This document shows positions 6,007 through 27,821 of a stretch of 64,000 nt of DNA, in pieces. Origin of the DNA: Sphingorhabdus sp. (GTDB lineage Bacteria > Pseudomonadota > Alphaproteobacteria > Sphingomonadales > Sphingomonadaceae); contig JANQNO010000007.1 of NCBI GenBank assembly GCA_028279555.1, positions 186,001-250,000 on the forward strand. The letters are read 5' to 3'. The notes beneath the pieces were generated by a model. It made no database searches, was not told where the DNA came from, and saw nothing but the letters and a program-made list of their open reading frames with translations. How positions within the stretch are numbered: position 1 is the first letter of the stretch; every line of letters begins with the position of its first letter. A program made the translations under genes and the position numbers.

Positions 6007-8697
6007 ATGACCGTTTCACCCGCCAAATCCGCGATCTCGCAGAATCCCGACATCCGCTATCTGGGGAAAATGCTGGGCGATGTCATCCGCGCCTATGGCG
6101 GTGATAAACTATACCGTCAGACCGAATATATCCGTTCCACCAGCGTCGACCGGTTTCGCGGCGTCGAGGGAGCCGATGCAAGCGATCGCGGCCTCGGGGC
6201 GCTCAGCCTCGACGACACGCTCGATTTTGTCCGCGGCTTCATGCTTTTTTCGCTGCTCGCCAATCTGGCAGAGGACCGGCAGGGCGTCGCCAGCGAAGAA
6301 GGCGCAAGCTTCGAAGAGGCGCTGATCAAGCTGCATGAAGAGGGCGTCGATAACGATACGCTGCGCGATCTTTTGGCCAATGCGCTGATCGTACCGGTGC
6401 TCACCGCGCATCCCACCGAAGTGCGACGCAAATCGATCATCGATCATAAAAACCGGATCGCGGCATTGATGGCGATGCGCGATGCGGGCCGAAGCGCGAC
6501 GCCGGACGGAGACGATATCGAGGATGCGATTGTCAGGCAGATCGCGCTGCTTTGGCAAACCCGGCCGCTGCGCAACGAAAAGCTGTTCGTCTCCGATGAG
6601 GTCGAAAATGCCCGCAGCTATATGCAGCAAGTATTCCTGACCGCACTGCCCAAGCTCTATATGCGCTGGGAAGCGGCGCTGGGCGAACGTCCGCCCGGTT
6701 TCGTGCGGCTGGGCAGCTGGATCGGCGGCGACCGCGACGGCAATCCCTTCGTCGATGCCGAGACCCTGCGCTATGCGGTGCGGCGCAATGGCGGCACCGC
6801 GATCCGCCACTATCTGGAGGAAATTCACAAGCTCGGCGCGGAAATCTCCATCTCGAGCCGCAACAGCGATACACCCGCCGATGTGCTGGCACTGGCGGAC
6901 AAGAGCGGCGACAATGCGCCCAGCCGCGCGGACGAGCCCTATCGGCGCGCGCTTTCGGGCATCTATACCCGGCTTTGCGCAACCCATGTCCGGCTCGTCG
7001 GCGATGAACCGCCGCGCCCCTCCTCGCTCGGCGGCGAAGCCTACACAGGGCCGGATGAACTGCGCGCCGATCTGGCTACGCTGGCTGGCGGGCTGGCCGC
7101 TGGCGGTGACGGGCAGCTCGCCACCGGCGGCGCGCTGGGCCGCCTGATCCGGGCGGTCGAGATTTTCGGTTTCCATCTCGCCACGCTCGACCTTCGCCAG
7201 AATAGCGTCGTGCATGAGCGCGTCGTTGCCGAGCTGTTTAAGGCCGCTGGCGTCGAGAGCGATTATCTCGCGCTCAACCAGGAGGCGCGCGTCACGCTCC
7301 TGCTTGCGGAACTATCGCACAACCGCCCGCTTGCCGACGAATGGCAGGATTATAACGAGGAAACCGCCAAGGAGCTGGCGATCATCCGCGCCGCTGCCGA
7401 GGCGCAGGCGAATTATGGCCGCGGCGTAATCACCACCTATAATATCAGCCAGACCGAGAGCGTGTCGCATATGCTGGAGGTTTATGTGCTGGCCAAGCAG
7501 GCCGGGCTCTTCCGCATCGGCGAAGATGGCACGCCAAGCGCGACCATCATGTCGGTGCCACTGTTCGAGACGATCGGCGATTTGCAGGCGGCACCTGACA
7601 CGATGACCGCCTTTTTCGCGCTCGAGCCGATGCGCGCGCTGGCCAGGAAGCGCGGCTATCAGGAAGTGATGATCGGCTATTCGGATTCGAACAAGGATGG
7701 CGGCTATATCACCTCGACATGGGAGCTGTTTCGCGCCTCTTCCGCGCTCGCCCCGATATTCGAGCAGGTCGGCGTCGGCATGCAGCTCTTTCACGGCCGG
7801 GGCGGAGCGGTGGGCCGCGGCGGGGGAAGCGCTTTCGGTGCAATCAAGGCGCAACCGCGCGGCACCGTGCAGGGCCGCATCCGCATCACCGAACAGGGCG
7901 AGGTTATCGCCGCCAAATATGGCACGGTCGATAATGCCGTCACTTCTCTGGAGACGATGGTATCGGCCACGCTGCTGGCGACATGCGCGCCCGACAAGAT
8001 CGCCGAGGTGGACCGCAAGCGCTTCCACGCTGCGATGGCCGATCTGTCGAAAGCGGCTTTCGGCCATTACCGCGCGCTGGTCTACGAGACAAAAGGCTTT
8101 GCCGAATTCTTCCGGCAGATGACGCCGATCAGCGAGATCGCCACGCTCAAGATCGGTTCGCGCCCCGCCAGCCGCAAGAAAGGCGGACGGATACAGGATC
8201 TGCGCGCTATCCCCTGGGTCTTCAGCTGGGCTCAGGCGCGCGTCATGCTGCCGGGCTGGTATGGCACAGGCCAGGCGCTATCCGAGTTTGGGGACAAGGA
8301 ATTGCTAAAGGCGATGGCGAGCGAATGGAGCTATTTCAGAAGCCTGCTCGCCAATATGGAAATGGTGCTGGCCAAAAGCGATATGGGCATCGCGGCGCAT
8401 TATGCCGCGCTGGTCAAGGATACAAAGCAATCCGAAACGCTCTTCGGGCAGGTCAGGGATGGCTGGAGCCAGGCGCATGACAGCCTGCTTACCGCCACCG
8501 GGCAGGATCATTTGCTCGCAGCCAACTCCACGCTCAACAATTCGATCCAGCTGCGCCTGCCCTATATCGAACCGCTCAATCTTTTGCAGATCGAGCTGAT
8601 GAAGCGGCACCGCGCGGGCGAGGATGACCCCCGGATCGGTGAAGGCATCCAGCTGACGATCAATGCGATTGCAACGGCGCTCAGGAATAGCGGCTGA
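6007..8697 (+). CDS. ppc: Phosphoenolpyruvate carboxylase
   Basis: Converts PEP and bicarbonate to oxaloacetate, refilling the TCA cycle. The 896-residue length is normal for the bacterial enzyme. The catalytic motifs are intact: VLTAHPTEVRRKS, FVRLGSWIGGDRDGNP, GYSDSNKDGG and FHGRGGAVGRGGG. The chain ends in ALRNSG, close to the usual terminal NTG. A GTG start at 5950 would add 19 residues unlike any PEPC, so the ATG at 6007 is preferred. Neither has a strong ribosome site. It is followed after 96 bases by a stress protein gene on the same strand. Confidence 0.97.
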   Translation: MTVSPAKSAISQNPDIRYLGKMLGDVIRAYGGDKLYRQTEYIRSTSVDRFRGVEGADASDRGLGALSLDDTLDFVRGFMLFSLLANLAEDRQGVASEEGASFEEALIKLHEEGVDNDTLRDLLANALIVPVLTAHPTEVRRKSIIDHKNRIAALMAMRDAGRSATPDGDDIEDAIVRQIALLWQTRPLRNEKLFVSDEVENARSYMQQVFLTALPKLYMRWEAALGERPPGFVRLGSWIGGDRDGNPFVDAETLRYAVRRNGGTAIRHYLEEIHKLGAEISISSRNSDTPADVLALADKSGDNAPSRADEPYRRALSGIYTRLCATHVRLVGDEPPRPSSLGGEAYTGPDELRADLATLAGGLAAGGDGQLATGGALGRLIRAVEIFGFHLATLDLRQNSVVHERVVAELFKAAGVESDYLALNQEARVTLLLAELSHNRPLADEWQDYNEETAKELAIIRAAAEAQANYGRGVITTYNISQTESVSHMLEVYVLAKQAGLFRIGEDGTPSATIMSVPLFETIGDLQAAPDTMTAFFALEPMRALARKRGYQEVMIGYSDSNKDGGYITSTWELFRASSALAPIFEQVGVGMQLFHGRGGAVGRGGGSAFGAIKAQPRGTVQGRIRITEQGEVIAAKYGTVDNAVTSLETMVSATLLATCAPDKIAEVDRKRFHAAMADLSKAAFGHYRALVYETKGFAEFFRQMTPISEIATLKIGSRPASRKKGGRIQDLRAIPWVFSWAQARVMLPGWYGTGQALSEFGDKELLKAMASEWSYFRSLLANMEMVLAKSDMGIAAHYAALVKDTKQSETLFGQVRDGWSQAHDSLLTATGQDHLLAANSTLNNSIQLRLPYIEPLNLLQIELMKRHRAGEDDPRIGEGIQLTINAIATALRNSG

Positions 8698-12695: not shown

Positions 12696-13349
12696 ATGTT
12701 CTCATCGGAAAACCTTTCAACAGAAGCAGCAATCGACTTGCTGGCATGCGCGAGAGGGAAAAAGTTTGGAACTATTCTGGCAGACCCACCATGGCAGTTT
12801 CAGAATAGAACTGGAAAAGTGGCACCTGAACATAAGCGGCTCAACCGTTATAGCACCATGTCTTTAGATGATATTTGCCGATTGCCCGTTGATGAAATAG
12901 CTGCTGATCCATCACATTTATATCTTTGGGTGCCGAATGCATTACTGCCGGATGGCTTGAAGGTAATGGAGGCATGGGGTTTTCGCTATGTGTCGAATAT
13001 TATCTGGCACAAAATCCGCAAAGATGGCGGTTCAGATGGGCGGGGCGTTGGGTTTTATTTTCGCAATGTCACCGAAATTCTATTGTTTGGCGTGAAGGGG
13101 AAAAACGCGAGAACGCTGGATGCCGGTCGACGACAAGTGAATATGATTCAGTCGAGAAAACGCGAACATAGCCGGAAACCCGACGAACAATACAGCATCA
13201 TTGAAGAATGCAGCTGGGGACCAAGACTGGAAATGTTTTCACGCGGAGTCCGGCGCGATTGGACAGTTTGGGGCTCCCAAGCCGACTCCACCTACAAGCC
13301 GGATTGGAAGACCTATCATTATAATAGTTCCTTGGAAGCCGCCGAATAA
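12696..13349 (+). CDS. MT-A70-family adenine-N6 DNA methyltransferase (type II R-M)
   Basis: A 217-residue protein with catalytic motif DPPW at residues 30-33 (ILADPPWQF), the hallmark of the MT-A70 branch of adenine methyltransferases. LYLWVPNALLPDGLKVMEAWGF and IIWHKIRKDG follow, also typical. It is expected to protect the partner nuclease's site using S-adenosylmethionine. The stop overlaps the nuclease start by one base (TAATG), which indicates translational coupling. Codon and base use are clearly AT-richer than neighbours, which suggests horizontal gain. The ribosome site is weak (GAAAGA). The recognition sequence cannot be read from the protein. Confidence 0.92.
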   Translation: MFSSENLSTEAAIDLLACARGKKFGTILADPPWQFQNRTGKVAPEHKRLNRYSTMSLDDICRLPVDEIAADPSHLYLWVPNALLPDGLKVMEAWGFRYVSNIIWHKIRKDGGSDGRGVGFYFRNVTEILLFGVKGKNARTLDAGRRQVNMIQSRKREHSRKPDEQYSIIEECSWGPRLEMFSRGVRRDWTVWGSQADSTYKPDWKTYHYNSSLEAAE

Positions 13350-14125
13350 TGTTCGGAAAATTGCGTGGGGCTGGGTTCGAGCTTCATTTCACAAATCACG
13401 CCCAAGCTATTTTGACCCATGACTTTTCGGACTTGGCCGCCGAAATTGAGGCTGCCTTGCTGGAGCTTTCTTTGCCGATTTCCGAGATAATCGGAGGTGG
13501 GGGCGGCGAATCGAAAATGACTCAACGTCTTCGTAAAGCATTGGCCGGCCTAGGATGGCCAAAACACAACTTCGTCGTATCAAAATCTGTCGACGGAATA
13601 GCGAAGGAATCTACCAGCCACGAAATCGATCATGTGCGCCGATCACCAAACGGAACCGTGGCTTTTGAGATTGAATGGAACAACAAGGATCCTTTTTTTG
13701 ATCGTGACCTTGAAAACTTCAAACGGCTTCATGCCGAAGGTGCGATTAGCATGGGCGGGATAATCACCCGCGGCGCGGGCATGCAGTCTGAAATGTTGCC
13801 AAGAGTGCTAGCCTATGGAAAATCTGAAGGAATCGCTGGCTATGATGATCTTGCCGCAATCAATCTCTCTCCGACTTCAGCTCAACGCAAGCAAATCAGC
13901 AGACAAGTTGATGCAGGGAAGCCTTTTGTAGAAGCGTGGTCTCGAAAATTTGTATCTGACAAATACGGTATGGCAACAACGCATTGGTCCAAATTGCAGG
14001 ATAGAATCGCCAGAGGTGTAGGCAATCCCTGCCCTTTAATTCTAATCGGATTGCCAGCGTCGATTATCGATATGACGAATTGCCTTTCCTACACACCCCA
14101 ATCTGTGGCTTATCCTGATGGATGA
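13349..14125 (+). CDS. Type II restriction endonuclease, BglII/BstYI-like
   Basis: A 258-residue protein that resembles the BglII/BstYI nuclease family in layout. A PD-(D/E)XK-type core can be read with Asp94 (EIDHV), then Glu107 and Glu109 (VAFEIEW). A C-terminal segment RIARGVGNPCPLILIGL matches the family's closing strand (compare BstYI RQGRGVPAAPLVLIGI). In BglII and BstYI the last active-site residue is Gln; here it appears to be Glu. Family members cut AGATCT or RGATCY, so a GATC-centred site is a reasonable guess. Its stop overlaps the start of the next gene as ATGA. Confidence 0.75.
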   Translation: MFGKLRGAGFELHFTNHAQAILTHDFSDLAAEIEAALLELSLPISEIIGGGGGESKMTQRLRKALAGLGWPKHNFVVSKSVDGIAKESTSHEIDHVRRSPNGTVAFEIEWNNKDPFFDRDLENFKRLHAEGAISMGGIITRGAGMQSEMLPRVLAYGKSEGIAGYDDLAAINLSPTSAQRKQISRQVDAGKPFVEAWSRKFVSDKYGMATTHWSKLQDRIARGVGNPCPLILIGLPASIIDMTNCLSYTPQSVAYPDG

Positions 14126-14772
14126 CACAGAATCATTCTTCCCATAACCCGCCCTCCGGCCGCGATGATGCGGCGGAAGGGCAAAATGAAACCCCAACCG
14201 ATCTGATGCAGTTCGATCCCGTGCCGGTGCGCGCGCGGCATGATGGCTGGACGCCGGAACGGCAGCTCGATTTTATCGAGGCGCTGGCCGAAACCGGCTG
14301 TGTGGATCAGGCCGCCCGCATCGCGGGGATGAGCGTGCAATCCGCCTACCGCATGCGCCGCCGCGCCGATGCGCAGGCCTTTCGCCTCGCCTGGGAAGCG
14401 GCGCTCGACCATGCCATCTCCAGGCTCTCGCATGCCGCCATTTCACGCGCCATTCACGGCACGCCGCGCCCGGTCTTCTATCAGGGCGAGCAGGTCGGCG
14501 AATGGCGTCATTTCGACGAGCGCCTCACCATGTTCATGCTGCGGCTGCGCGATCCGGTGCGCTATGGCCAGTGGCGCGACCGGCTGGAAGCGCAGCAGCA
14601 TGAGGATGGCCCGGCGCTGATCCTCAATCGCTGGCAGAACCGGCTGGAGGAATGGGCGCATACAGGCAGCTATGACCGCAGCGGGCCCGACATGCCGGCG
14701 GAGGAAGAGGAGGAAGACTATTTCGAAGGCGAATCCGGTGATGAAGCGGGCGGAACAGGAGAGGAGATTTGA
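14122..14772 (+). CDS. Helix-turn-helix protein of unknown function
   Basis: A 216-residue protein. Residues about 42-80 (DFIEALAETGCVDQAARIAG, then MSVQSAYRMRRRADA) read as a small helix-turn-helix like those of phage terminase small subunits and transposase-like proteins. The middle is Arg/Ala-rich helix, and the C-terminus is very acidic (EEEEEDYFEGESGDE). I recall similar unnamed proteins from sphingomonads. Base composition returns to the GC-rich host level exactly here. The ATG overlaps the nuclease stop as ATGA, so it may be read from the R-M operon, by chance or by function. The actual role is unknown. Confidence 0.65.
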   Translation: MTQNHSSHNPPSGRDDAAEGQNETPTDLMQFDPVPVRARHDGWTPERQLDFIEALAETGCVDQAARIAGMSVQSAYRMRRRADAQAFRLAWEAALDHAISRLSHAAISRAIHGTPRPVFYQGEQVGEWRHFDERLTMFMLRLRDPVRYGQWRDRLEAQQHEDGPALILNRWQNRLEEWAHTGSYDRSGPDMPAEEEEEDYFEGESGDEAGGTGEEI

Positions 14773-14837
14773 TGCCCAGCATGCTCCGGCCCATGGGTCG
14801 AACCGACCCTAACTTTCCTAACCTTTCGCTTTGCGGT

Positions 14838-16205
14838 TCAGATTTCGGTGAGCCTTATCTGCAGCCCGTCTTTGGGGCGCGGGATTGGCCATGGCTGCCA
14901 CTCGGGATCATAGCCATCCTCAATTTCTATGCGCCGCGTGGTGAGCAGCCGGTGCATGAACAGCTTCACCTGCTGATAGGCGAAATGCAGCCCCAGGCAC
15001 ATATGCGCGCCGCCGCCAAAGGGCACCCAGGCATATTTATGCCGCGCCTTTACCTGTTCGGGGGTAAAGCGCATCGGATCGAATTTTTCCGGCTCGGGCC
15101 AATATTCCTCCATCATGTGAACCTGCGCAGGCGAGATGCTGACCGCCGTGCCCTTGGGGATGTGATGCCCCATAAATTCGAAATCCCTGAGCGCGCGGCG
15201 CGGGATCGAGGGAACGGGCGGGATCATCCGCAGCGTTTCCTTCATCGCCATTTCGGTAAGCTCGAAGCTCGACAGGTCTTCATAGGCGACATCGCTGCCG
15301 GCGGGAGCAATGGCGAGGCATTCTGCGCGCAGCTTGTCCTGCCATTCAGGATGCTTGGCCAGCATCCAGACCAGCGAAGTCAGTGTCGAGGTGGTCGTAT
15401 CATGCGCGGCGAGAAGCAGGAAATTCATGTGATCGATGACTTCCTCGTCGCTCATATATTCGCCGTCCTCGCGCTTCACACGGCAAAACTGGCTGAACAT
15501 ATCCTGCCGGTTTTCATTGCGCCGCCTTTCCTCGATCTGCGGCAGCAGGAATTCGGTCACGAATTTGCGCCCCCTTACGCCGCGGCCCATCTTGGTGAAA
15601 GGCAGCGGGTGGCGCACCGCCCCGATCGAGGCCTGAACCATATCGACATAGGCCTGATTCATGCGGTCGGCCTCGGGGCCCAGCTCCATCCCGAAAAAGA
15701 CCTCCATCGCAACGTCCAGCGTCAATTGCTTGATCGCCGGAAAAAACAGCATTTCGCCCTTCCATCCCGGAAGCTCGCGCGCAAATATGGCGTTCATGTC
15801 TTTCACATAATGCTTCATCGCATCGGGCTTGAAAGCGACGCCCAGCGCGCGGCGATCGACGCGGTGATGATCGAAATCCTTGAGCATCAAACCGCGCGGG
15901 AAGAGCAGGTTGAGCACCGGTCCCCAACCCTGCTCGGAAGAAAAAATTTTTTCCCGGTCCATCAGCAGCAATTCATTGGCCTCTGCGCCGACCATGTTGA
16001 TACCGGTCATGCCCAGCGCCTTGTTGCGGTGAATCTTGCCATATTTTTCGGTCATATACTGGCCGAAGGCGGGCGGATCCTTAAGCAACCGGAAAGTGTT
16101 CCCAACGATGGGCCAGCCATCCTCGCCCGGCAAATGCGACAGTTTGTCCATGCTCGCACGTTTTACCCAATGCGGGTTTGCGGCTTCACTGCTGGCAAGA
16201 GCCAT
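14838..16205 (-). CDS. Cytochrome P450
   Basis: A 455-residue soluble P450. The heme loop FGGGAHMCLGLHFA (about residues 394-407) holds the thiolate cysteine. The I-helix oxygen-activation motif is AAHDTTTST, and the K-helix ExxR lies in KETLRMIPPVPS. There is no membrane anchor. Ferredoxin and reductase partners are not adjacent, and the substrate is unknown. It stands alone between the HTH gene and a lipoprotein gene, transcribed in the opposite direction to both. Confidence 0.95.
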   Translation of the reverse strand: MALASSEAANPHWVKRASMDKLSHLPGEDGWPIVGNTFRLLKDPPAFGQYMTEKYGKIHRNKALGMTGINMVGAEANELLLMDREKIFSSEQGWGPVLNLLFPRGLMLKDFDHHRVDRRALGVAFKPDAMKHYVKDMNAIFARELPGWKGEMLFFPAIKQLTLDVAMEVFFGMELGPEADRMNQAYVDMVQASIGAVRHPLPFTKMGRGVRGRKFVTEFLLPQIEERRRNENRQDMFSQFCRVKREDGEYMSDEEVIDHMNFLLLAAHDTTTSTLTSLVWMLAKHPEWQDKLRAECLAIAPAGSDVAYEDLSSFELTEMAMKETLRMIPPVPSIPRRALRDFEFMGHHIPKGTAVSISPAQVHMMEEYWPEPEKFDPMRFTPEQVKARHKYAWVPFGGGAHMCLGLHFAYQQVKLFMHRLLTTRRIEIEDGYDPEWQPWPIPRPKDGLQIRLTEI

Positions 16206-16437
16206 GGGATAATTCCATTGTTTAATCGACCGGTTAAATCATCTTCTGCCACCAATCCCCGCATTAGGCAAGCGGTGAGCATTCGCCGGGGAAGTGTCCC
16301 GATATGAATAACAACCGATTAAGGCATTCATATTCAATTCAATCCCTCTATCCTAACCCTTGGGCATTGGAACAACAGGGCGAGTCGAATAGGCAAAAAG
16401 CCAGCGCCGCCCGCCAAAAACGGACAGGGGTGGACGG

Positions 16438-20685: not shown

Positions 20686-20800
20686 GACGCATCCGCAATG
20701 AGAATTCAGGCGCGCTTATTGCCACGCGATGGCAGCCAGGCAAAGCGCAATCGGCAGCGGAAAATTTTTCGCTTGGCCGCTGGGCATCTGTGGTTATTTT

Positions 20801-21484
20801 ATGTCCGGAAACAGGCAGAGGATTCTAATTTTGCAACAGGCAGAGCGCATCGCTGTCATCAAGGAACTTTTCGGGTGCCCCGCGGAGGTCGCCGAACAGG
20901 CCAATGCGTCGATGCATCACCGCAAGGCGGCCTGCAACAATGCCATCCTGCATCAGGGCGATGAAAGCGGTATCTGCCATTTGGTCGTCGATGGCCATGC
21001 CCGCGCGCACATAGTCGGGATCGACGGGCAATATGTTCAGATCGCAACCTATGAACCGGGGGAGATATTCGGTTCCTACCCGGAGAAGGAAACGCAGCGC
21101 GCCGACATTATCGCTGGCGATGGCCTCGAATTATTGATCATCGAGAGCGCAAGGCTCGCCGAACTCGCCGACGGGCTCGCGCCGCTTGGCGGCGGATTGT
21201 CGCGTATATTCTCCCAGCAGATGGGCATGCTGTTCGACCGGATGGCTGCCCGGGTGATGCTCAGCGCAAACGGGCGGGTCTATGCCGAATTGTTACGACT
21301 TGCCGACCGGGACAATGTTATCAAACCTGCCCCTGTCATTGCGGCCATCGCGGTTTCCGTCCAAACAGCCCGCGAGACGGCATCACGCGCTTGCAGCAAT
21401 CTGCAGAAGCGCGGAATTATCGAGCGCGAAAAGACGCATTGGCGGATTGTCGCACCGCGTCAGCTGGAAGATATGATCGCATAG
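20801..21484 (+). CDS. Crp/Fnr-family transcriptional regulator
   Basis: A 227-residue regulator with a cyclic-nucleotide-like sensor domain (residues about 20-130, ICHLVVDGHARAHI then YEPGEIFGSYPEKE) and a C-terminal winged helix (IAAIAVSVQTARETASRA). No Fe-S cysteine set is present. An ATG at 20729 would add 24 residues with no family character, so 20801 is preferred. It is divergent from putA and overlaps the convergent cyclase-like gene by 25 bases. In the absence of PutA's own DNA-binding domain it is the likely local regulator; this is inference. Confidence 0.85.
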   Translation: MSGNRQRILILQQAERIAVIKELFGCPAEVAEQANASMHHRKAACNNAILHQGDESGICHLVVDGHARAHIVGIDGQYVQIATYEPGEIFGSYPEKETQRADIIAGDGLELLIIESARLAELADGLAPLGGGLSRIFSQQMGMLFDRMAARVMLSANGRVYAELLRLADRDNVIKPAPVIAAIAVSVQTARETASRACSNLQKRGIIEREKTHWRIVAPRQLEDMIA

Positions 21485-22932
21485 ACCGGAAAGCTCCCGA
21501 TGCTGCTGCGTATCTCGCCAGCTTCTTCAACACGAATATCATCATCTGCCGCCAGTAGCGCGAAAGCCGCGGCCTTGCTGGCAGAAACCTGTCCTTCCTC
21601 TGCCGTTTCGAGCAGTGCGCGGCAGCGCGCGAAGAGCGCGCTCGATTCGATACCCGATGTTACGATACCCTGATCGATGGCGCATTTGCTTGTATCATCC
21701 TGCAACGCGGTCATAGCGCTGCGGGCTGCTGTCAGTGTTGAAAATTGCAAGATAACCCCGCCCGGAATCTCATGCCGCGCAGTCTGGCCTTCGACCCCAT
21801 CGGGCGACACCCCTGCACCAGCCAGCGCCAGCAAGGCGGCAAGCTGGCCTTCGTCTGCCTGCCCTTCCGGCCTGGAACCTCCGCTTTCGTGAATGGTGAT
21901 GGTATCGGCCGCGCCGCCGCTCGCTATCCAGTCCGACAGCCTCTGCTGCGCGCGCTTCTCATGCCGCCGGTCCATCCTGAGGGCGAGCGCTTCACTTTGC
22001 AGATTACGGGCATTCTGCCGCGCCAGCCCCTGGCACACCGCTTCACAGATACGCACGGCATTGGGTAGGGGCGCATCCGCCGCTGCTAGATAATCGACCG
22101 TATCGGCCTGCTCCATCAGGGCATCGAAGCGCGACGCCCAATCTTCGCCGATCGCGGCCACCGATTGGGCGCGGAAATTTTTGCGGTCGCAGGGCAAAAT
22201 CACATGCAGCTCACCGCCGCGCGCCAGCAGCGCTTCGGCAATCAATATATCCGCGCCCGCCGCCAGCGCGCCATAGCCAAAACCGACATTATGCGCCGCG
22301 AGCCAGCCATCCACTTCGGCACACAGCGCGCTTTCATCCTCGGGCAGGCGCATCACCCCCTGGAAATGCAGGCTGGCGGGCGGTTGATACCGCTCCAGCC
22401 AGCCTGCATCCGCCCCCATTTCGGCTGTGACCAGCCGAAACTGCCCGATGGTTGCTGCGTGATCCTCATAGGCCTGCGGAGCCTTGCCGATCGCTTCGGC
22501 CAGCGCCGCTCGCGCTTCTGTTTCTTTCCCCAATAGGAGCAACGCCTCACTGCGCGTCGCGCCGAGCCAATAGGCGGTTTCCGCCTCGTCCGGATTGGCA
22601 TCGAGCATGGCAAGCACATCATTTGCGAGGCTCTGCGCGCGCGCATTATCCCCGGCCATCAGCGCAAGCGTGGCGGCATTGATCAGCGCGTAAGAGGATG
22701 GAAAGACCGCAGAGGACGCGGCATAGGCTTCGCCCGCTTCGGCAAAAAGGCGCTGACGCTCCGCCCCTGATGCGGCCTTCGCCTGATCCTTGATCAGTCG
22801 CCCCTTGAGCGTCAGCGCGCGCGGATCGTCCGTCGCATCCAGCCAGCCATCATCGACAAATAAGCGCCAGGCCCGCGCTGGCGAACCAGCCCGGGCCGTG
22901 CGCAGGATTTTGGGAAGTGGGGTCTTCTCTAT
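21460..22932 (-). CDS. TPR protein with SLOG-like region and degenerate nucleotide-cyclase-like tail; start codon unclear
   Basis: The first ATG is at 22659, but protein-like sequence continues in frame up to 22968 (ARAWRLFVDDGWLDATDD, then LTLKGRLIKDQAK and EAYAASSAVFPSSYALINAA). Those residues belong to the same TPR-like unit. No ATG, GTG or TTG occurs in that stretch; only ATT, ATC, ATA or CTG are available. The ATA at 22932 overlaps the upstream stop as ATAG and has GGAAGA 6 bases before it. After the TPRs, FGYGALAAGADILIAEALLA, then GGELHVILPC, resembles a SLOG/LOG nucleotide-binding fold. The final 130 residues (GIVTSG, GQVSASKAAAFALL and GSFPVYAI) resemble a class III cyclase lacking its metal aspartates. 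It is the third gene of the TIR operon. Function unknown. Confidence 0.65.
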   Translation of the reverse strand: MEKTPLPKILRTARAGSPARAWRLFVDDGWLDATDDPRALTLKGRLIKDQAKAASGAERQRLFAEAGEAYAASSAVFPSSYALINAATLALMAGDNARAQSLANDVLAMLDANPDEAETAYWLGATRSEALLLLGKETEARAALAEAIGKAPQAYEDHAATIGQFRLVTAEMGADAGWLERYQPPASLHFQGVMRLPEDESALCAEVDGWLAAHNVGFGYGALAAGADILIAEALLARGGELHVILPCDRKNFRAQSVAAIGEDWASRFDALMEQADTVDYLAAADAPLPNAVRICEAVCQGLARQNARNLQSEALALRMDRRHEKRAQQRLSDWIASGGAADTITIHESGGSRPEGQADEGQLAALLALAGAGVSPDGVEGQTARHEIPGGVILQFSTLTAARSAMTALQDDTSKCAIDQGIVTSGIESSALFARCRALLETAEEGQVSASKAAAFALLAADDDIRVEEAGEIRSSIGSFPVYAIISSS

Positions 22933-23573
22933 GACGATTCTTCCGAAGTGAGGTCGATGGCCTGCAATTTAATGACGGGCTCTTCAACTGAGAGGTCTAA
23001 ATAGCGGAAACTATTTACACCACCGCCACCGGGTGGCGGGTTTTTGATATCAGGATCGATTGTTATTGGCAGCCACCCTCCCTGATGCTTTTGTTCTAAT
23101 TCTACTGTAAAGCTGAACCCGTCAGGTGGGACATTGGCATTGCTATCGCGAGCGTTGCAATAAATACTGATCCGGTCATCTAATCCATCTTCATAAAATG
23201 TACCGGTTCCGTTTACTTGCGCTACCCCATAGTAGTCGATGCAATCTTCTTTAGTTGTAAGATGCACACCTTTTCGCAGCGGCCAACGCCAGCGCACATT
23301 TTCATCCAGAACAATGGTAAGCTTAGTGTTTTCCTCGATTGCCAGATAGAAAATCCCTGTTCCGATCCCATCTCTTAGCTCTTCCACAACTACCTTTGAG
23401 AATGACTGACCTGAATTCGTGTCTTCCCTCATTGTGAATACGATCCGCGTCTTGTTACCAGCGATTTGTTTTTCTTTGATTGACAGAGTCAAGTTTACGT
23501 CCCTCGCGGGATCGCCCTCAAACGGAATGTCGTCCAAAATTGCGTACTGCCGGAATCCCTCTTCTGGTTTCAT
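22929..23573 (-). CDS. Protein of unknown family, middle gene of TIR operon
   Basis: I do not recognise it. The 214-residue product is polar, has no signal peptide or membrane span, and reads as mostly beta strand (VNLTLSIKEK, TRIVFTMRED, DGFSFTVELEQ). It carries an unusual NPPPGGGG linker at about residue 180, then a short acidic tail. The ATG at 23573 lies one base after the TIR gene's stop and has a strong GGGAGGA site, so it is translationally coupled. The ATG at 23606 would lose that site. The gene is AT-richer than the genome average here. A sensor, adaptor or effector of the TIR protein is possible. Confidence 0.75.
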   Translation of the reverse strand: MKPEEGFRQYAILDDIPFEGDPARDVNLTLSIKEKQIAGNKTRIVFTMREDTNSGQSFSKVVVEELRDGIGTGIFYLAIEENTKLTIVLDENVRWRWPLRKGVHLTTKEDCIDYYGVAQVNGTGTFYEDGLDDRISIYCNARDSNANVPPDGFSFTVELEQKHQGGWLPITIDPDIKNPPPGGGGVNSFRYLDLSVEEPVIKLQAIDLTSEESS

Positions 23574-23574
23574 T

Positions 23575-25170
23575 TTATAGTCCTCCCTTTTTCTCCAAGT
23601 CATCAATCTGAATACTCCAGCCGCGCCATTCTTGGTTATGGGGATCGTGCTGGAGCAGACGATCCGCGTTTCCCTTTGCAGCCTTCAAGAAACTGCGAAG
23701 CTGACTAACCCGATTGGTTTTTGTAAGTAATTGGGCGAATGATAGCTGAGCACGCATCAAGTTCTCGATCCTCTCCATGTTTTCCGGCTCAAGTTTTATC
23801 AATTGATTGACAAGCTCTTGCTGCTTGATCCGGTGCTCGAATGCCAAATCAATTTTCCCGTTTGCGAGCCAAGCGTCCGCCATCCACGCCTGCCGGTTCG
23901 CATAGTTTTCTATCACCGTCGGGTTGCTGCTATTCGACCGATACACCGACAACATCGTTTCCAACGCCAACTTACATTCTTCTAGCGCCAAACTAGGTTG
24001 TTGCGGCCTCCCAAGAGAAACCGCACAAAGATCACCATAGGCAAAAGCCAATTCCACAATCCAGTCAGCTTTTCGTGAAGGTAGCTCAACGAGAGACAGC
24101 GCAAGACTTTTTCTGACTTCAAAATGTCTGCGTGCCGACTCCTTTTTCCCGTTAAGAAATGCAACGTATCCTAGCCAGAATTCGCTTTGCGCATGCGAAT
24201 ATATCCTGTCGGGATTTTCCTTTTCTCGTTCGAACAACTCTTCCGTTACTCGGTACGCTTCCCGAAATTTCGCGAGTGCTTTGCCCCGGTCACCTCGAAC
24301 AAGATCATCCTCGCCCCAACTATGTAGGACGAAAGCCCGCTTCTCCAGTGCTTCGACCGGAAGCGCGGAGAGATCCCCCTGATTTTCGTAATATTCCATC
24401 GCGCGCTTGTTGACCGCCGTCATGATGTCGAGCCGCCCCACGCCTTTCAGGTCTTCGCGCAGATCGGTCAGCATGAAGCCGATCAAGCCGTCGGCTTGCG
24501 CCTGCTGATGCTGCGCCTCCGCCCGCTGGGCCTGCGCTTCGTTGCGCGACTCGATGGCGACCACTGTCATAATGGCCATCACTAGCATCGCCGCCAGCGC
24601 CCCGCCCGTGACCGCCATCACGCGCCGGACCCGGCGCTGGGCATCGCGCTGGACGAGCGCATCGAGCGGTACAGCGGCAATCCCCGCCACGACTTTCAGA
24701 AAGCCGAGCCGCGACCCGTCGCCCTCCTTGCGCAGGTCCGCCGCGAGCGGCTCCTTCCCCAAGGTCAAGGGAAGCGGCAAGGCTTCGTCGGGTTCGCCCT
24801 CGATCAGCGCAGCGAGCACAGGGCGATCGGGATGCAATTCGCGAAACAGCTCTATCTCGCGCGCGACCCAGGGCGATGCCTTCGCGGCAGGCGAACAGAG
24901 CACAACCAGAGCCTGCGATATTTTGAGCGCGGCCTTTACCGATTCCGACAGATCTTCGGCAGCAGGAAGATCTTCGCGGTCGCGGAATATCTGCCCCAGC
25001 CGGTCGCTGGCACCGCTATCTCCTGCATTCTTCGCATCCGCGAGCCGCGCCGCCACATGCTTCGGCAGGCGGTAGCTTTCGAGTTTCTTATGGAGTTTCT
25101 GCGCAGCTTTCTTGTCAGCATGACTATAGCTGACGAAAGCGCTGAAGGCGCGACCTTCCCTCTCCCCCAT
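23575..25170 (-). CDS. TIR domain - membrane anchor - TPR protein
   Basis: A 531-residue protein. Residues about 8-150 form a bacterial TIR domain: AFVSYSHADKKAAQKLH at the start, LVVLCSPAAKASPWVAREIE in the middle. Glu105 sits where NADase-type TIRs have their catalytic glutamate. One membrane span follows at about 184-206 (VMAVTGGALAAMLVMAI). After a Gln/Ala coiled stretch, residues 230-520 are helical repeats of TPR type (ALAKFREAYRVTEELFE, FWLGYVAFLNGKKESARRHF). The topology would place TIR in the cytoplasm and the repeats in the periplasm, or both inside if the span is a hairpin. The repeat half is AT-richer than the TIR half. Whether it cleaves NAD or only signals is unknown. Confidence 0.88.
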   Translation of the reverse strand: MGEREGRAFSAFVSYSHADKKAAQKLHKKLESYRLPKHVAARLADAKNAGDSGASDRLGQIFRDREDLPAAEDLSESVKAALKISQALVVLCSPAAKASPWVAREIELFRELHPDRPVLAALIEGEPDEALPLPLTLGKEPLAADLRKEGDGSRLGFLKVVAGIAAVPLDALVQRDAQRRVRRVMAVTGGALAAMLVMAIMTVVAIESRNEAQAQRAEAQHQQAQADGLIGFMLTDLREDLKGVGRLDIMTAVNKRAMEYYENQGDLSALPVEALEKRAFVLHSWGEDDLVRGDRGKALAKFREAYRVTEELFEREKENPDRIYSHAQSEFWLGYVAFLNGKKESARRHFEVRKSLALSLVELPSRKADWIVELAFAYGDLCAVSLGRPQQPSLALEECKLALETMLSVYRSNSSNPTVIENYANRQAWMADAWLANGKIDLAFEHRIKQQELVNQLIKLEPENMERIENLMRAQLSFAQLLTKTNRVSQLRSFLKAAKGNADRLLQHDPHNQEWRGWSIQIDDLEKKGGL

Positions 25171-25293: not shown

Positions 25294-25968
25294 TTATTCT
25301 TCCCGGTCGACGATCACATCTTCGGCTTTGACATCGGATTTGGGCGTTGCTCGCGCCATCCGCTTCATCCTCAGAATCCGTCCGTCATGCCAGCCCATCA
25401 GGCCCTCATCGACGCCAAGCGGAAGGAAGAGCGCGCCGCTGCTCTCCGAGAGCCCCCATTGACCGCCACCCGCGCACATCCATTCATGCGGATTGCCGGT
25501 CTTTGCAGGATCGATCTTGAGCAGTTCAAGCGCGGGGGCAAAAAACTGATCGGCCTGTTCGCGCGCTGCCTTCTGGATAATGATGCCCGACACCGGTTCC
25601 TCGCAGAAATCATCGCTGCCTTCGCTCTTTTGCGGCATATAACTCCAGCGCAGCTGCTCAGGATAAATGTCGACAATGGCACCTTCCATCGGCTCCTTCA
25701 CCTTGCGCGATGCCGTTTTGCGCGTCCTGTCCAGCGCCAGGATCGCCTCCACTTTCCAGCTACCCTGCAGCTGCTCAACGGTAATCTCGTCAGGAATCGA
25801 ACGCTCTAGCCCGGCATCGCCTTCCTTCGCACCGCCGGGCGCGGGGGCGGCGGTATTGCTGGCGCTATTGCCGGCAGATGCGTCATCTTCCTTTGGTGCA
25901 TCGGCTTTCCTGTCGCAGGCCGATATGAGCAAAGCGGCCAGCATGAGTGGCGCAACCAGTTTCTTCAT
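25294..25968 (-). CDS. Lipoprotein of unknown function, possible partner of the LysM protein
   Basis: A 224-residue lipoprotein. The signal MKKLVAPLMLAALLISACDR has its lipobox Cys at residue 19. A Ser/Ala/Gly/Pro-rich spacer to about residue 55 follows, then a globular domain that begins EITVEQLQGSWKVEAILALD. The start at 25968 places the signal correctly; an upstream ATG at 25989 would precede it with seven extra residues. It lies 17 bases after the LysM gene. Cell-wall-active proteins are often followed by lipoprotein inhibitors, so an immunity or modulator role is possible. No inhibitor family was recognised. Confidence 0.75.
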   Translation of the reverse strand: MKKLVAPLMLAALLISACDRKADAPKEDDASAGNSASNTAAPAPGGAKEGDAGLERSIPDEITVEQLQGSWKVEAILALDRTRKTASRKVKEPMEGAIVDIYPEQLRWSYMPQKSEGSDDFCEEPVSGIIIQKAAREQADQFFAPALELLKIDPAKTGNPHEWMCAGGGQWGLSESSGALFLPLGVDEGLMGWHDGRILRMKRMARATPKSDVKAEDVIVDREE

Positions 25969-25985
25969 AGGGAAGCAGCCTTTCG

Positions 25986-27656
25986 TCAATCGGTATTGAT
26001 CAGAATATAGCTGAGCTTGGTCTGGCCGCCAAGCGCGCGCAGAAAGCTACCATATTGCGATTTTGGAATGGTCTGGCAGCCCGCCGACCAGGTGGTGCTG
26101 TTGCCGCCGCGGTGGATCAGCATAGACCGCTGAGCTCCCTTTGGATCGATCATGTCGCCGTCGACCAGCGAGAAATGGCCATCATGATTGACGTCGCGCA
26201 TCGCCACCTGTGTGGAGCGCGCGCGGAAGAATGCACCGCCAAGGAACGTCCCGGCCTGCTTCACATAATGATAAGTGCCCGCGCGCAAGCGCCCTAGATC
26301 GTTGCGGCCATCTCCGTCGATATCGGTGCTCGATCCCTTATGCGCCTTGGCCTGACCCCAGGCATAGATGCCGGCTGGCTCGGTGTTGCCCTTGAAGCGG
26401 CGCAGGCGAACCGCGCCGCCAGGTTCCCGCCAGACCAGAATCATCGCATCGTCATAGCGGCCGTTCAAATGCTTCTTGCTGTTTGTCCGATTGCGCAGCG
26501 CAATCAGCACCTTTTGCCCATTAGTGAAATTATTGAGCGCTTCGAGGTCGCCATATTTTTCGATGAGCAGGCGGACCTCATCATCGGTTAGGGACTTTTG
26601 CGCTTTTTTGAGCAGCGCATCGGCTTCTTTCTCGACCTTCTCTTCGTCTTTCTCTTTGGGCGGCGGTGGAGGCGGCGTGATCGCTTTTGCTGCATTTTCC
26701 GCCGACAGCATGGCCAGTGCATCATTCAGCTCATTGCGGAAGCGCTTTGCCACACCTTCCTGAACGGCCTGCGAATTGCGCGAGAAATGCGCGAGATTAC
26801 CATCCGCATTGCGCCGCCCGCGCTCACCATAAATAGCTACAATCGCATCGCGGTCATAGGCGGCGTCAGAAGGCTTGGTTTCCAGACCCTTGAGCAATTT
26901 CCCGATCATGCTGGAGCCCGGCCCATGCTGCACTGCCGTCGACCAGACCACATCCTGCAAGGCGCGGCTGCGCTCATTCACATCGATGCCTGACAGGTCT
27001 GTGATCTTCTTGACCTGTTTGTCATAGTGGGTGCGCTTGATATAGGCGTGCTGTGCTTCGTGGAAGGCATGCTCCTCGCGTTTGGCGATCGCTTTCCAGA
27101 TGCGCGAGAATTCCGCGCTGCCCTGTTCTGCTCCGCCGAACTCGTCCTTGTATTTCTTGCCCTCGGCATTGAGGAACTGGCGCGGGCGGTCCATTTTCGA
27201 TGCCAGCTGATAGCTACCGTAGGACACCCCGCCATGATCCCCGCGGCCGGTCGAAACAGTTCCGGCACCGCCCGATGACACCTCATATTTCTTCGACAGA
27301 TTGCCGAGCTCTCGGGCCGGGCTGATCGAGGAAGCAGTTGCAGCCGGCGTGCCGGAGGGGATGATCAGCCTCTGGCCGACCGAAATCTTGTTGGCATTGG
27401 CAATCTTGTTGGCCGCCATGATCTGCTGCACGCTGACATTGTAGCGCTTGGCAATCTTGCCGAGCGTGTCCCCGCTCACAATTGTGTAATATATCTCGCT
27501 GATCGGTTTGACCCTGAGCTCTTGGCCCACGGAGATCGCATTGCGATTCTTGATACCGTTAAGCGCGACAATGGAATCGACGCTGACACCGTGATTCTTA
27601 GCGATCTTGCCGAGCGAGTCGCCCGAACGCACCTTGTATGTCTGATAGATTGCCAT
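25986..27656 (-). CDS. Multidomain LysM protein with predicted peptidoglycan-active modules
   Basis: A 556-residue protein with two N-terminal LysM repeats (residues about 5-50, YKVRSGDSLGKIAKNHG, and about 55-100, YTIVSGDTLGKIAKRYN). A region beginning SSGGAGTVSTGRGDHGGVSY resembles chitosanase-like domains appended to some VgrG proteins. A Pro/Lys/Glu linker follows (PPPPPPKEKDEEKVEKE). The C-terminal part has two Ca2+-loop-like segments (DIDGDGRNDLGRL, DVNHDGHFSLVDGD), then IHRGGNSTTWSAGCQT, reminiscent of a transpeptidase Cys motif. No secretion signal is visible. GGAGGGG upstream of 27656 fixes the start. It may be an antibacterial effector or a wall-remodelling enzyme; the domain calls beyond LysM are tentative. 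Confidence 0.78.
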   Translation of the reverse strand: MAIYQTYKVRSGDSLGKIAKNHGVSVDSIVALNGIKNRNAISVGQELRVKPISEIYYTIVSGDTLGKIAKRYNVSVQQIMAANKIANANKISVGQRLIIPSGTPAATASSISPARELGNLSKKYEVSSGGAGTVSTGRGDHGGVSYGSYQLASKMDRPRQFLNAEGKKYKDEFGGAEQGSAEFSRIWKAIAKREEHAFHEAQHAYIKRTHYDKQVKKITDLSGIDVNERSRALQDVVWSTAVQHGPGSSMIGKLLKGLETKPSDAAYDRDAIVAIYGERGRRNADGNLAHFSRNSQAVQEGVAKRFRNELNDALAMLSAENAAKAITPPPPPPKEKDEEKVEKEADALLKKAQKSLTDDEVRLLIEKYGDLEALNNFTNGQKVLIALRNRTNSKKHLNGRYDDAMILVWREPGGAVRLRRFKGNTEPAGIYAWGQAKAHKGSSTDIDGDGRNDLGRLRAGTYHYVKQAGTFLGGAFFRARSTQVAMRDVNHDGHFSLVDGDMIDPKGAQRSMLIHRGGNSTTWSAGCQTIPKSQYGSFLRALGGQTKLSYILINTD

Positions 27657-27821
27657 AAGGCCCCTCCGCTTGCGCCGCAGACGCGGCAAGAAAAGAAGAT
27701 ACGACCTTATTTTTTAGGATTGGCGAATCTTGTAACATGGGGGAAGCCAAAAGACCAGAGCGGGCAAAGGTGCCCAGGCTGTGAGGCGCGGCAATACGCT
27801 CCATATATGCCTTGAGATTCG

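Follow-up and report, generated by a model that had tools for sequence, protein, structure and literature searches.

A four-gene module with TIR, TPR-S and Crp-family proteins in Sphingorhabdus sp., and a possible link of its middle protein to DP-EP proteins beside membrane TPR receptors

What might a membrane-anchored TIR protein, a small fast-evolving protein and a protein combining TPR, SLOG and cyclase-like regions be doing together in one operon? The question is raised by three consecutive minus-strand genes at 21460-25170 of a stretch of 64,000 nucleotides from Sphingorhabdus sp. (GenBank assembly GCA_028279555.1, contig JANQNO010000007.1, positions 186,001 to 250,000), the whole of which we call the window. 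A preliminary description saw in them a possible receptor for a nucleotide messenger with TIR as the output, an interpretation that holds in part: the three coupled genes do form one operon, as judged from the sequence and its open reading frames, and the domain assignments largely stand, while the middle protein is not of an unrecognised kind and the set is incomplete, since a convergent Crp-family gene at 20729-21484 on the plus strand belongs to it and had been left out. Our own reading, which we hold tentatively and rate just short of an even chance, is that the locus encodes a four-gene inducible signalling module, most likely immune or stress-related, in which the middle protein (the DP-protein, with a conserved Asp-Pro bond) is the partner of a receptor half made of a transmembrane segment and TPRs (TM-TPR). 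The features discussed below are as follows, A1, A4 and A5 being alignments introduced with the respective proteins.

23575..25170, minus strand: TIR-TM-TPR protein of 531 amino acids (TIR_2 and ThsB_TIR matches, residues 12-149)
24856..24858, minus strand: codon of Glu105, invariant in A4 (14/14)
24553..24609, minus strand: predicted transmembrane segment, residues 188-206 (hydropathy 2.19, flank charges +4/-1)
23581..23587, minus strand: GGGAGGA, ribosome site before the middle gene (from the sequence)
22929..23573, minus strand: middle protein, 214 amino acids from ATG, a PF20301 pNTSase1 match interpreted here as a DP-EP-like beta-sandwich (Pfam and model)
23052..23057, minus strand: codons of Asp173-Pro174, candidate self-cleavage bond, invariant in A1 and A5
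21460..22932, minus strand: third protein, about 490 amino acids, TPR-S, SLOG and degenerate class III cyclase domain (open frame, PF20308 and model)
21886..22383, minus strand: SLOG domain of the third protein, residues 184-349
21463..21861, minus strand: cyclase homology domain of the third protein, residues 358-490, catalytic positions lost
20729..21484, plus strand: Crp-family regulator, transcribed towards the operon and with an uncertain start (HTH_Crp_2 E 2.1e-8, cNMP_binding E 2.7e-7)

The gene set is more than chance: PF20301 was found in 16 of 296 genomes from the order (one of them under the curated cut-off), and each of these 16 carries the TIR, middle and TPR-S genes in the same order, with the TIR gene of L017 cut by a contig end. 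In a phylum-wide sample PF20301 was found in four of 398 genomes, all four from this order. A profile of the third protein reached further, with matches in 63 of the 296 genomes, and the 47 additional genomes plus two second matches, less L132, which repeats the L022 locus, gave 48 loci that we split at E 1e-100, after the results had been seen, into 31 close (L084-L113 and L124) and 17 distant ones (L114-L123 and L125-L131). A TIR gene lies upstream in 24 of the 31 close loci (that of L113 is cut by a contig end) and is missing in six (L088, L099, L106, L107, L111, and L100, which begins at a contig end); in L105 an 89-amino-acid TIR remnant directly precedes the TPR-S gene (6630-6899), a decayed cassette that has kept its TPR-S and Crp genes. 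The 17 distant loci all lack both a TIR gene directly upstream and a Crp gene. All 22 named loci of the genome_contigs collection with the motif IDPDI[KR]NP hold the three genes and 20 of them the Crp gene; these carry sphingomonad names apart from one named only Proteobacteria, overlap with the 16 and were selected by the motif, about which they prove little.

What, then, is the middle protein? It matches the Pfam family PF20301 pNTSase1 at 34.2 bits, over the cut-off of 25, and the full name of that family, 'Predicted novel nucleotide synthetase', offers one answer: that it makes a nucleotide messenger, which the SLOG/pseudocyclase and Crp proteins read and for which TIR is the effector. The SLOG, cyclase-like and cNMP-binding folds that adjoin the middle gene would suit such a role, as would Thr106, Lys108 and Tyr115, which are invariant among the 10 closest middle proteins. 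The predicted structure does not support it, being all-beta without the alpha/beta layout of a nucleotidyltransferase, though its mean pLDDT (predicted local distance difference test) is 67; furthermore, only D-P-D and one Pro are invariant across 36 type-1 middle proteins (A5), the same slot also takes a protein with an HxGxH tail and no profile kinship, and DP-EP proteins are indicated both by the best rows of the structural comparison and by gene context. Messenger synthesis by the middle protein appears very unlikely to us. A 2020 paper by Burroughs and Aravind is reportedly associated with both the PF20301 pNTSase1 and the PF20308 TPR-S families.

In a structural comparison (VIA) the top rows for the middle protein were those of SO1698 from Shewanella (PDB 3n55, 3njf-3njn), a DP-EP protein that cuts itself at an Asp-Pro bond and a representative of what we take to be PF08985 (DUF1888). 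In its model the middle protein resembles the DP-EP family as a putative all-beta sandwich, and it has in common with that family an Asp-Pro near the C-terminus, within DP[DEQ][IV]xN, and a gene placed directly after that of a TM-TPR receptor. Asp173-Pro174 is invariant in both type-1 sets (A1, 17 rows, and A5), and the window's motif DPDIKN keeps the Asp-Pro, the hydrophobic residue and the Asn of the DP-EP pattern [EQ][VIM]xN, with Asp in place of Glu/Gln; in the structural rows, Asp173 is the last partner of Asp116 of SO1698 in three of 10 rows, is implied by the range ends in three, and is off by one in four. Unlike DP-EP proteins, the middle protein is longer, has an acidic residue after the Pro and lies outside the Pfam profile: it gave no match to PF08985 up to E 10, which is why we call it DP-EP-like and not a member. 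Its model found no match at E 0.001 with Foldseek alone, and a search of solved structures with the A5 profile returned a single chance match (E 5.8). Kinship with DP-EP is supported, if unproven, and by analogy with SO1698 the middle protein may cleave itself at Asp173-Pro174.

The strongest line of evidence for this link is gene context. In a different class of the phylum, presumably the gammaproteobacteria since SO1698 is from Shewanella, DP-EP genes occur in nine of 79 genomes of one order (that of genome G500), and in all nine loci the DP-EP gene lies directly behind a gene for a protein of 1051-1112 amino acids. Three of these large proteins were scanned with Pfam and have the architecture Trans_reg_C-nSTAND1-TPR, that is, a winged helix-turn-helix (wHTH) with nSTAND; the other six start similarly by eye. 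A profile of 14 aligned TIR proteins (A4, in which relatives are 35-52% identical to the window protein) matches all nine significantly (E 6e-38 to 5e-51), but the match is confined to the TM-TPR part and starts at position 164-188; a hydrophobic segment at the homologous place is over the limit in five of the six checked. The nSTAND1 (PF20703) proteins have a TM-TPR half homologous to that of the TIR protein and a DP-EP gene adjoining, but their output is wHTH and STAND NTPase, and no TPR-S homologue was found in the stretches examined there; the middle protein accompanies TIR and TPR-S, whereas DP-EP accompanies wHTH-nSTAND. At L146 (7812-8733), two tandem DP-EP genes follow one nSTAND receptor gene, the second with an apparent signal peptide; another such peptide is seen, by eye, in the DP-EP protein of L133.

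A search with the shared TM-TPR half (A11) matched in 14 of 200 genomes; 11 of these were new, the others being that of the window, G019 and one genome already known to have DP-EP. The two best of the 11 are L230 and L231. At L230, which encodes a TIR-TM-TPR protein (E 2e-174 with A4), the next small gene ends LDPRIVNKPSSTN, and at L231 (E 7.5e-53; a P-loop and a start resembling a wHTH were recognised by eye) the next small gene ends CDPQVVCRPPPHTAGG; behind the nine weaker of the 11 new loci, a small gene of that kind was absent. The DP-EP profile ranked the small protein of L230 first among non-members, at E 3.7e-4 compared with 1.1 for the best of 2000 decoys; one middle protein came second (0.028), and the window's own fell among the decoys (2.4). 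No TPR-S gene was found in the 13 kb examined near L230. From these sequence comparisons, the core of the system seems to be a swappable output joined to TM-TPR, together with a DP-protein.

The middle position is also variable within the TIR-bearing cassettes. Middle-gene ends could be classed in 23 of the 24 close loci with TIR, the genes having been named without using the motif: 13 have the DP motif, nine HxGxH(P/F) and one neither. The HxGxH-tail (type-2, A8) proteins occupy the slot between TIR and TPR-S in L085, L089, L091-L093, L097, L098, L110 and L113; as candidate relatives of type 1 or of DP-EP they gave hhalign probabilities of 0.45% and 0.26%, which leaves a relationship unproven. 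Type-1 proteins are 16-43% identical to that of the window (A1), and in L087 and L104 two tandem middle genes stand between TIR and TPR-S. Such fast change and doubling would fit a sensor.

What of the receptor itself? The TIR protein matches TIR_2 (E 5.9e-13) and ThsB_TIR (E 1.3e-9), and S14-Y15-S16-H17 (an SYSH motif), Trp101 and Glu105 are invariant in all 14 proteins of A4. Glu105 stands where TIR NADases have their catalytic Glu, in keeping with the first description of the domain, and the protein may cleave NAD. Directly behind the TIR domain comes a hydrophobic segment in 14 of 14; in five of the 14 a stretch inside the TIR domain is also over the limit, as in the window protein, where residues 155-173 reach a hydropathy of 1.93. 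The positive charge on the N-side of the transmembrane segment suggests that the TIR domain is inside and the TPRs outside. In the 16 middle proteins of the PF20301 genomes no hydrophobic stretch at the N-terminus exceeds the limit, though the charge would put the TPRs outside.

The third protein was likewise described correctly as a TPR protein with a SLOG-like region and a cyclase-like tail: its AlphaFold2 model (pLDDT 94.3) matches YpsA/SLOG and class III cyclases, so that both the SLOG Rossmannoid fold and the class III cyclase fold are supported. The window protein scores 25.2 bits for PF20308 TPR-S, under the cut-off of 27.6, and all 15 rows of A3, the window's included, match at E up to 0.1. 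As had been claimed, the tail has lost its catalytic residues, the two metal-binding Asp, the Lys, the Asn and the Arg of class III cyclases all being gone in the window protein. Both metal Asp are kept in 13 of 67 cassette rows, the Lys in none of those 13, in a part where the alignment is rough, while 16 of the 17 distant homologues keep both metal Asp and have Asn at the Lys position. The best hydropathy of the third protein is 1.49, at 218 inside the SLOG domain and below the limit of 1.6. Compared with the TPR region of the kinase ASK1, there is no kinase here, and SLOG and cyclase domains come after the TPRs. Going by its modelled folds, this protein may sense a nucleotide.

TIR beside SLOG recalls Thoeris. 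In Thoeris, the SLOG protein ThsA carries a SIR2 or membrane effector. The system pairs it with the TIR protein ThsB (PMC9503650). According to PMC9503650, PMC7159879 and PMC8195603, TIR domains generate ADP-ribose signals, Thoeris senses by means of SLOG, and cyclases that have become inactive in conflict systems possibly bind nucleotides. Thoeris-like logic alone could therefore operate here, with TIR making an ADP-ribose-type messenger for SLOG, the middle protein sensing the invader and the DP motif being only structural; the TIR and SLOG pairing, the ThsB_TIR match, the constancy of Glu105 and the arms-race-like divergence and doubling of the middle protein would all agree with this. Yet SLOG is joined here to TPRs and a pseudocyclase, with no SIR2 domain found either by profile match or among the fold rows, and two extra genes are present; the membrane anchor of the TIR protein and the occurrence of DP-proteins beside non-TIR receptors would be left unexplained, and we consider this account unlikely. 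With PADLOC, ThsB models matched the TIR protein no better than E 0.004-0.009, and a SAVED_TIR match (E 7.4e-7) has its best stretch over TIR residues 61-116. No CD-NTase of CBASS (cyclic oligonucleotide-based anti-phage signalling system) was seen among six proteins scanned with Pfam and five with PADLOC.

The fourth, co-inherited component of the module is the Crp-family regulator. In 42 of 47 close loci (13/16 and 29/31) its gene is the next one downstream, convergent in all but L025; one of the five exceptions, L109, stops at a contig end. Within the genus, a Crp homologue (E 1e-8) is present in nine of 31 genomes and the third protein in the same nine, the window's own genome included; since the Crp gene lies away from the cassette in G734 and G748, neighbourhood alone does not explain this co-occurrence. 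The third and Crp genes also stay together in L088, L099, L106, L107 and L111, where TIR and middle genes are gone. In cAMP-binding Crp proteins a Ser or Thr follows the conserved Arg. A role as cAMP sensor is doubtful here: the window protein has Ala at this position, as do 44 of the 69 proteins aligned, and the Arg is conserved in 31 of the 69 (some rows are the same locus twice). Exact GTGA-N6-TCAC boxes upstream of the TIR gene occur in seven of 53 regions, whereas 100 random draws gave 1.56 on average and 4 at most, and boxes with one mismatch in 11 of 53, not beyond the control (mean 5.06, maximum 12); we do not rely on these counts, as the regions are related and the window has no box. 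Among 57 upstream regions, no single exact 5-base palindrome recurred in more than four.

Might the module then report envelope or metabolic stress and have nothing to do with immunity, an outward TPR receptor conveying the state of the envelope, TIR serving as adaptor and the Crp protein as output? A receptor-like topology and the presence of a DNA-binding protein in either version, Crp in this one and a wHTH joined to nSTAND1 in the three scanned proteins of the other, speak for it, as do the absence of a defence island from the scanned flanks and the near absence of the third protein from plasmids and its absence from phages: one of 72,556 plasmid records at E 1e-20 (NZ_CP141945.1, 199850-200878, a Novosphingobium replicon of 1.8 Mb) and none of 50,697 phages at E 1e-5. 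Nevertheless, patchy presence in the genus, rapid evolution of the middle gene, and cassettes that have lost the TIR and middle genes but kept the third and Crp genes fit conflict genes better, and Glu105 is invariant. A stress role without immunity is in our view improbable, and a role of the operon in immunity may be supposed.

The DP-protein as partner of a TM-TPR receptor would work along the following lines. Dedicated to the TM-TPR half, whose TPRs it may contact, the DP-protein would sense a trigger or be cut at Asp173-Pro174 as SO1698 is; the cleaved protein or its freed tail would switch the receptor, and the TIR domain would then cleave NAD. The SLOG/pseudocyclase protein would bind a nucleotide, either product or substrate of TIR, and set the threshold, with the Crp-family protein adjusting expression of the operon. 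Receptor and partner could thus be a reusable front end, with a TIR output here and a wHTH-nSTAND output in the other class. Several observations weigh on the other side: hhalign values for A1 and A5 are weaker; the charges flanking the transmembrane segment are mixed, the N-side being more positive in 10 of 14 proteins, equal in three and less positive in one; and at L031 (genome G131, of the same genus and outside the 31-genome sample) no Crp gene lies next to the cassette. In its boldest form, which we regard as possible but doubtful, the idea extends to a modular proteolysis-gated receptor across classes of Pseudomonadota, switched by a self-cutting DP-protein, with either a TIR NADase (SLOG/pseudocyclase read-out and Crp control) or wHTH-STAND as output, and with 'pNTSase1' a misnomer. 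If true, nucleotide synthesis as database function would give way to Asp-Pro self-cleavage, SO1698 would gain a biological setting as partner of a membrane TPR receptor, and bacterial TIR and STAND signalling would be linked through one receptor front end.

The families are already known and so, probably, is their association. No mention of this operon was found in the parts of PMC9503650, PMC7159879 and PMC8195603 that were covered, and in a limited survey of titles and abstracts neither the operon nor pNTSase1 nor the pairing of DP-EP with TPR receptors came up, though they may have been published before; as far as the surveyed literature goes, the DP-EP link, the Crp partner and the alternative middle proteins look new.

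The gene boundaries show close coupling. The ATG of the middle gene lies one base past the TAA stop of the TIR gene and is preceded, at a distance of 8-14 bases, by GGGAGGA, which is the strong coupled ribosome site noted at the outset. For the third gene, an open frame extends from 22968 to 21460, with no ATG, GTG or TTG before 22659, but homologues begin near 22932, where an ATA (22930-22932, minus strand) overlaps the TAG stop of the middle gene as ATAG, with GGAAG upstream. In most of the 22 named relatives an ATG, GTG or TTG stands at about the homologous place, by a rule that admitted only these three codons, and the database version of the third protein (P0017, 399 amino acids) begins 91 codons after the homologous start. 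Either the ATA is used or the start decayed recently; since about 490 codons show no other damage, we favour use of the ATA.

As to the defence-island association raised earlier, a methyltransferase was the only one of 10 flanking window proteins to match PADLOC at E 0.001, which is too little for an island. Genes for an MT-A70 methyltransferase and then a BglII-type restriction endonuclease lie at 12696-14122 on the plus strand, ending 6.6 kb from the Crp gene, and the two genes behind the endonuclease (14122-16307) had no Pfam match at E 1e-6. Directly upstream of the operon are a LysM protein with a C-terminal domain like that of VgrG3 of the type VI secretion system (25986-27689, minus strand) and, beside it, a possible lipoprotein (25294-25989, minus strand).

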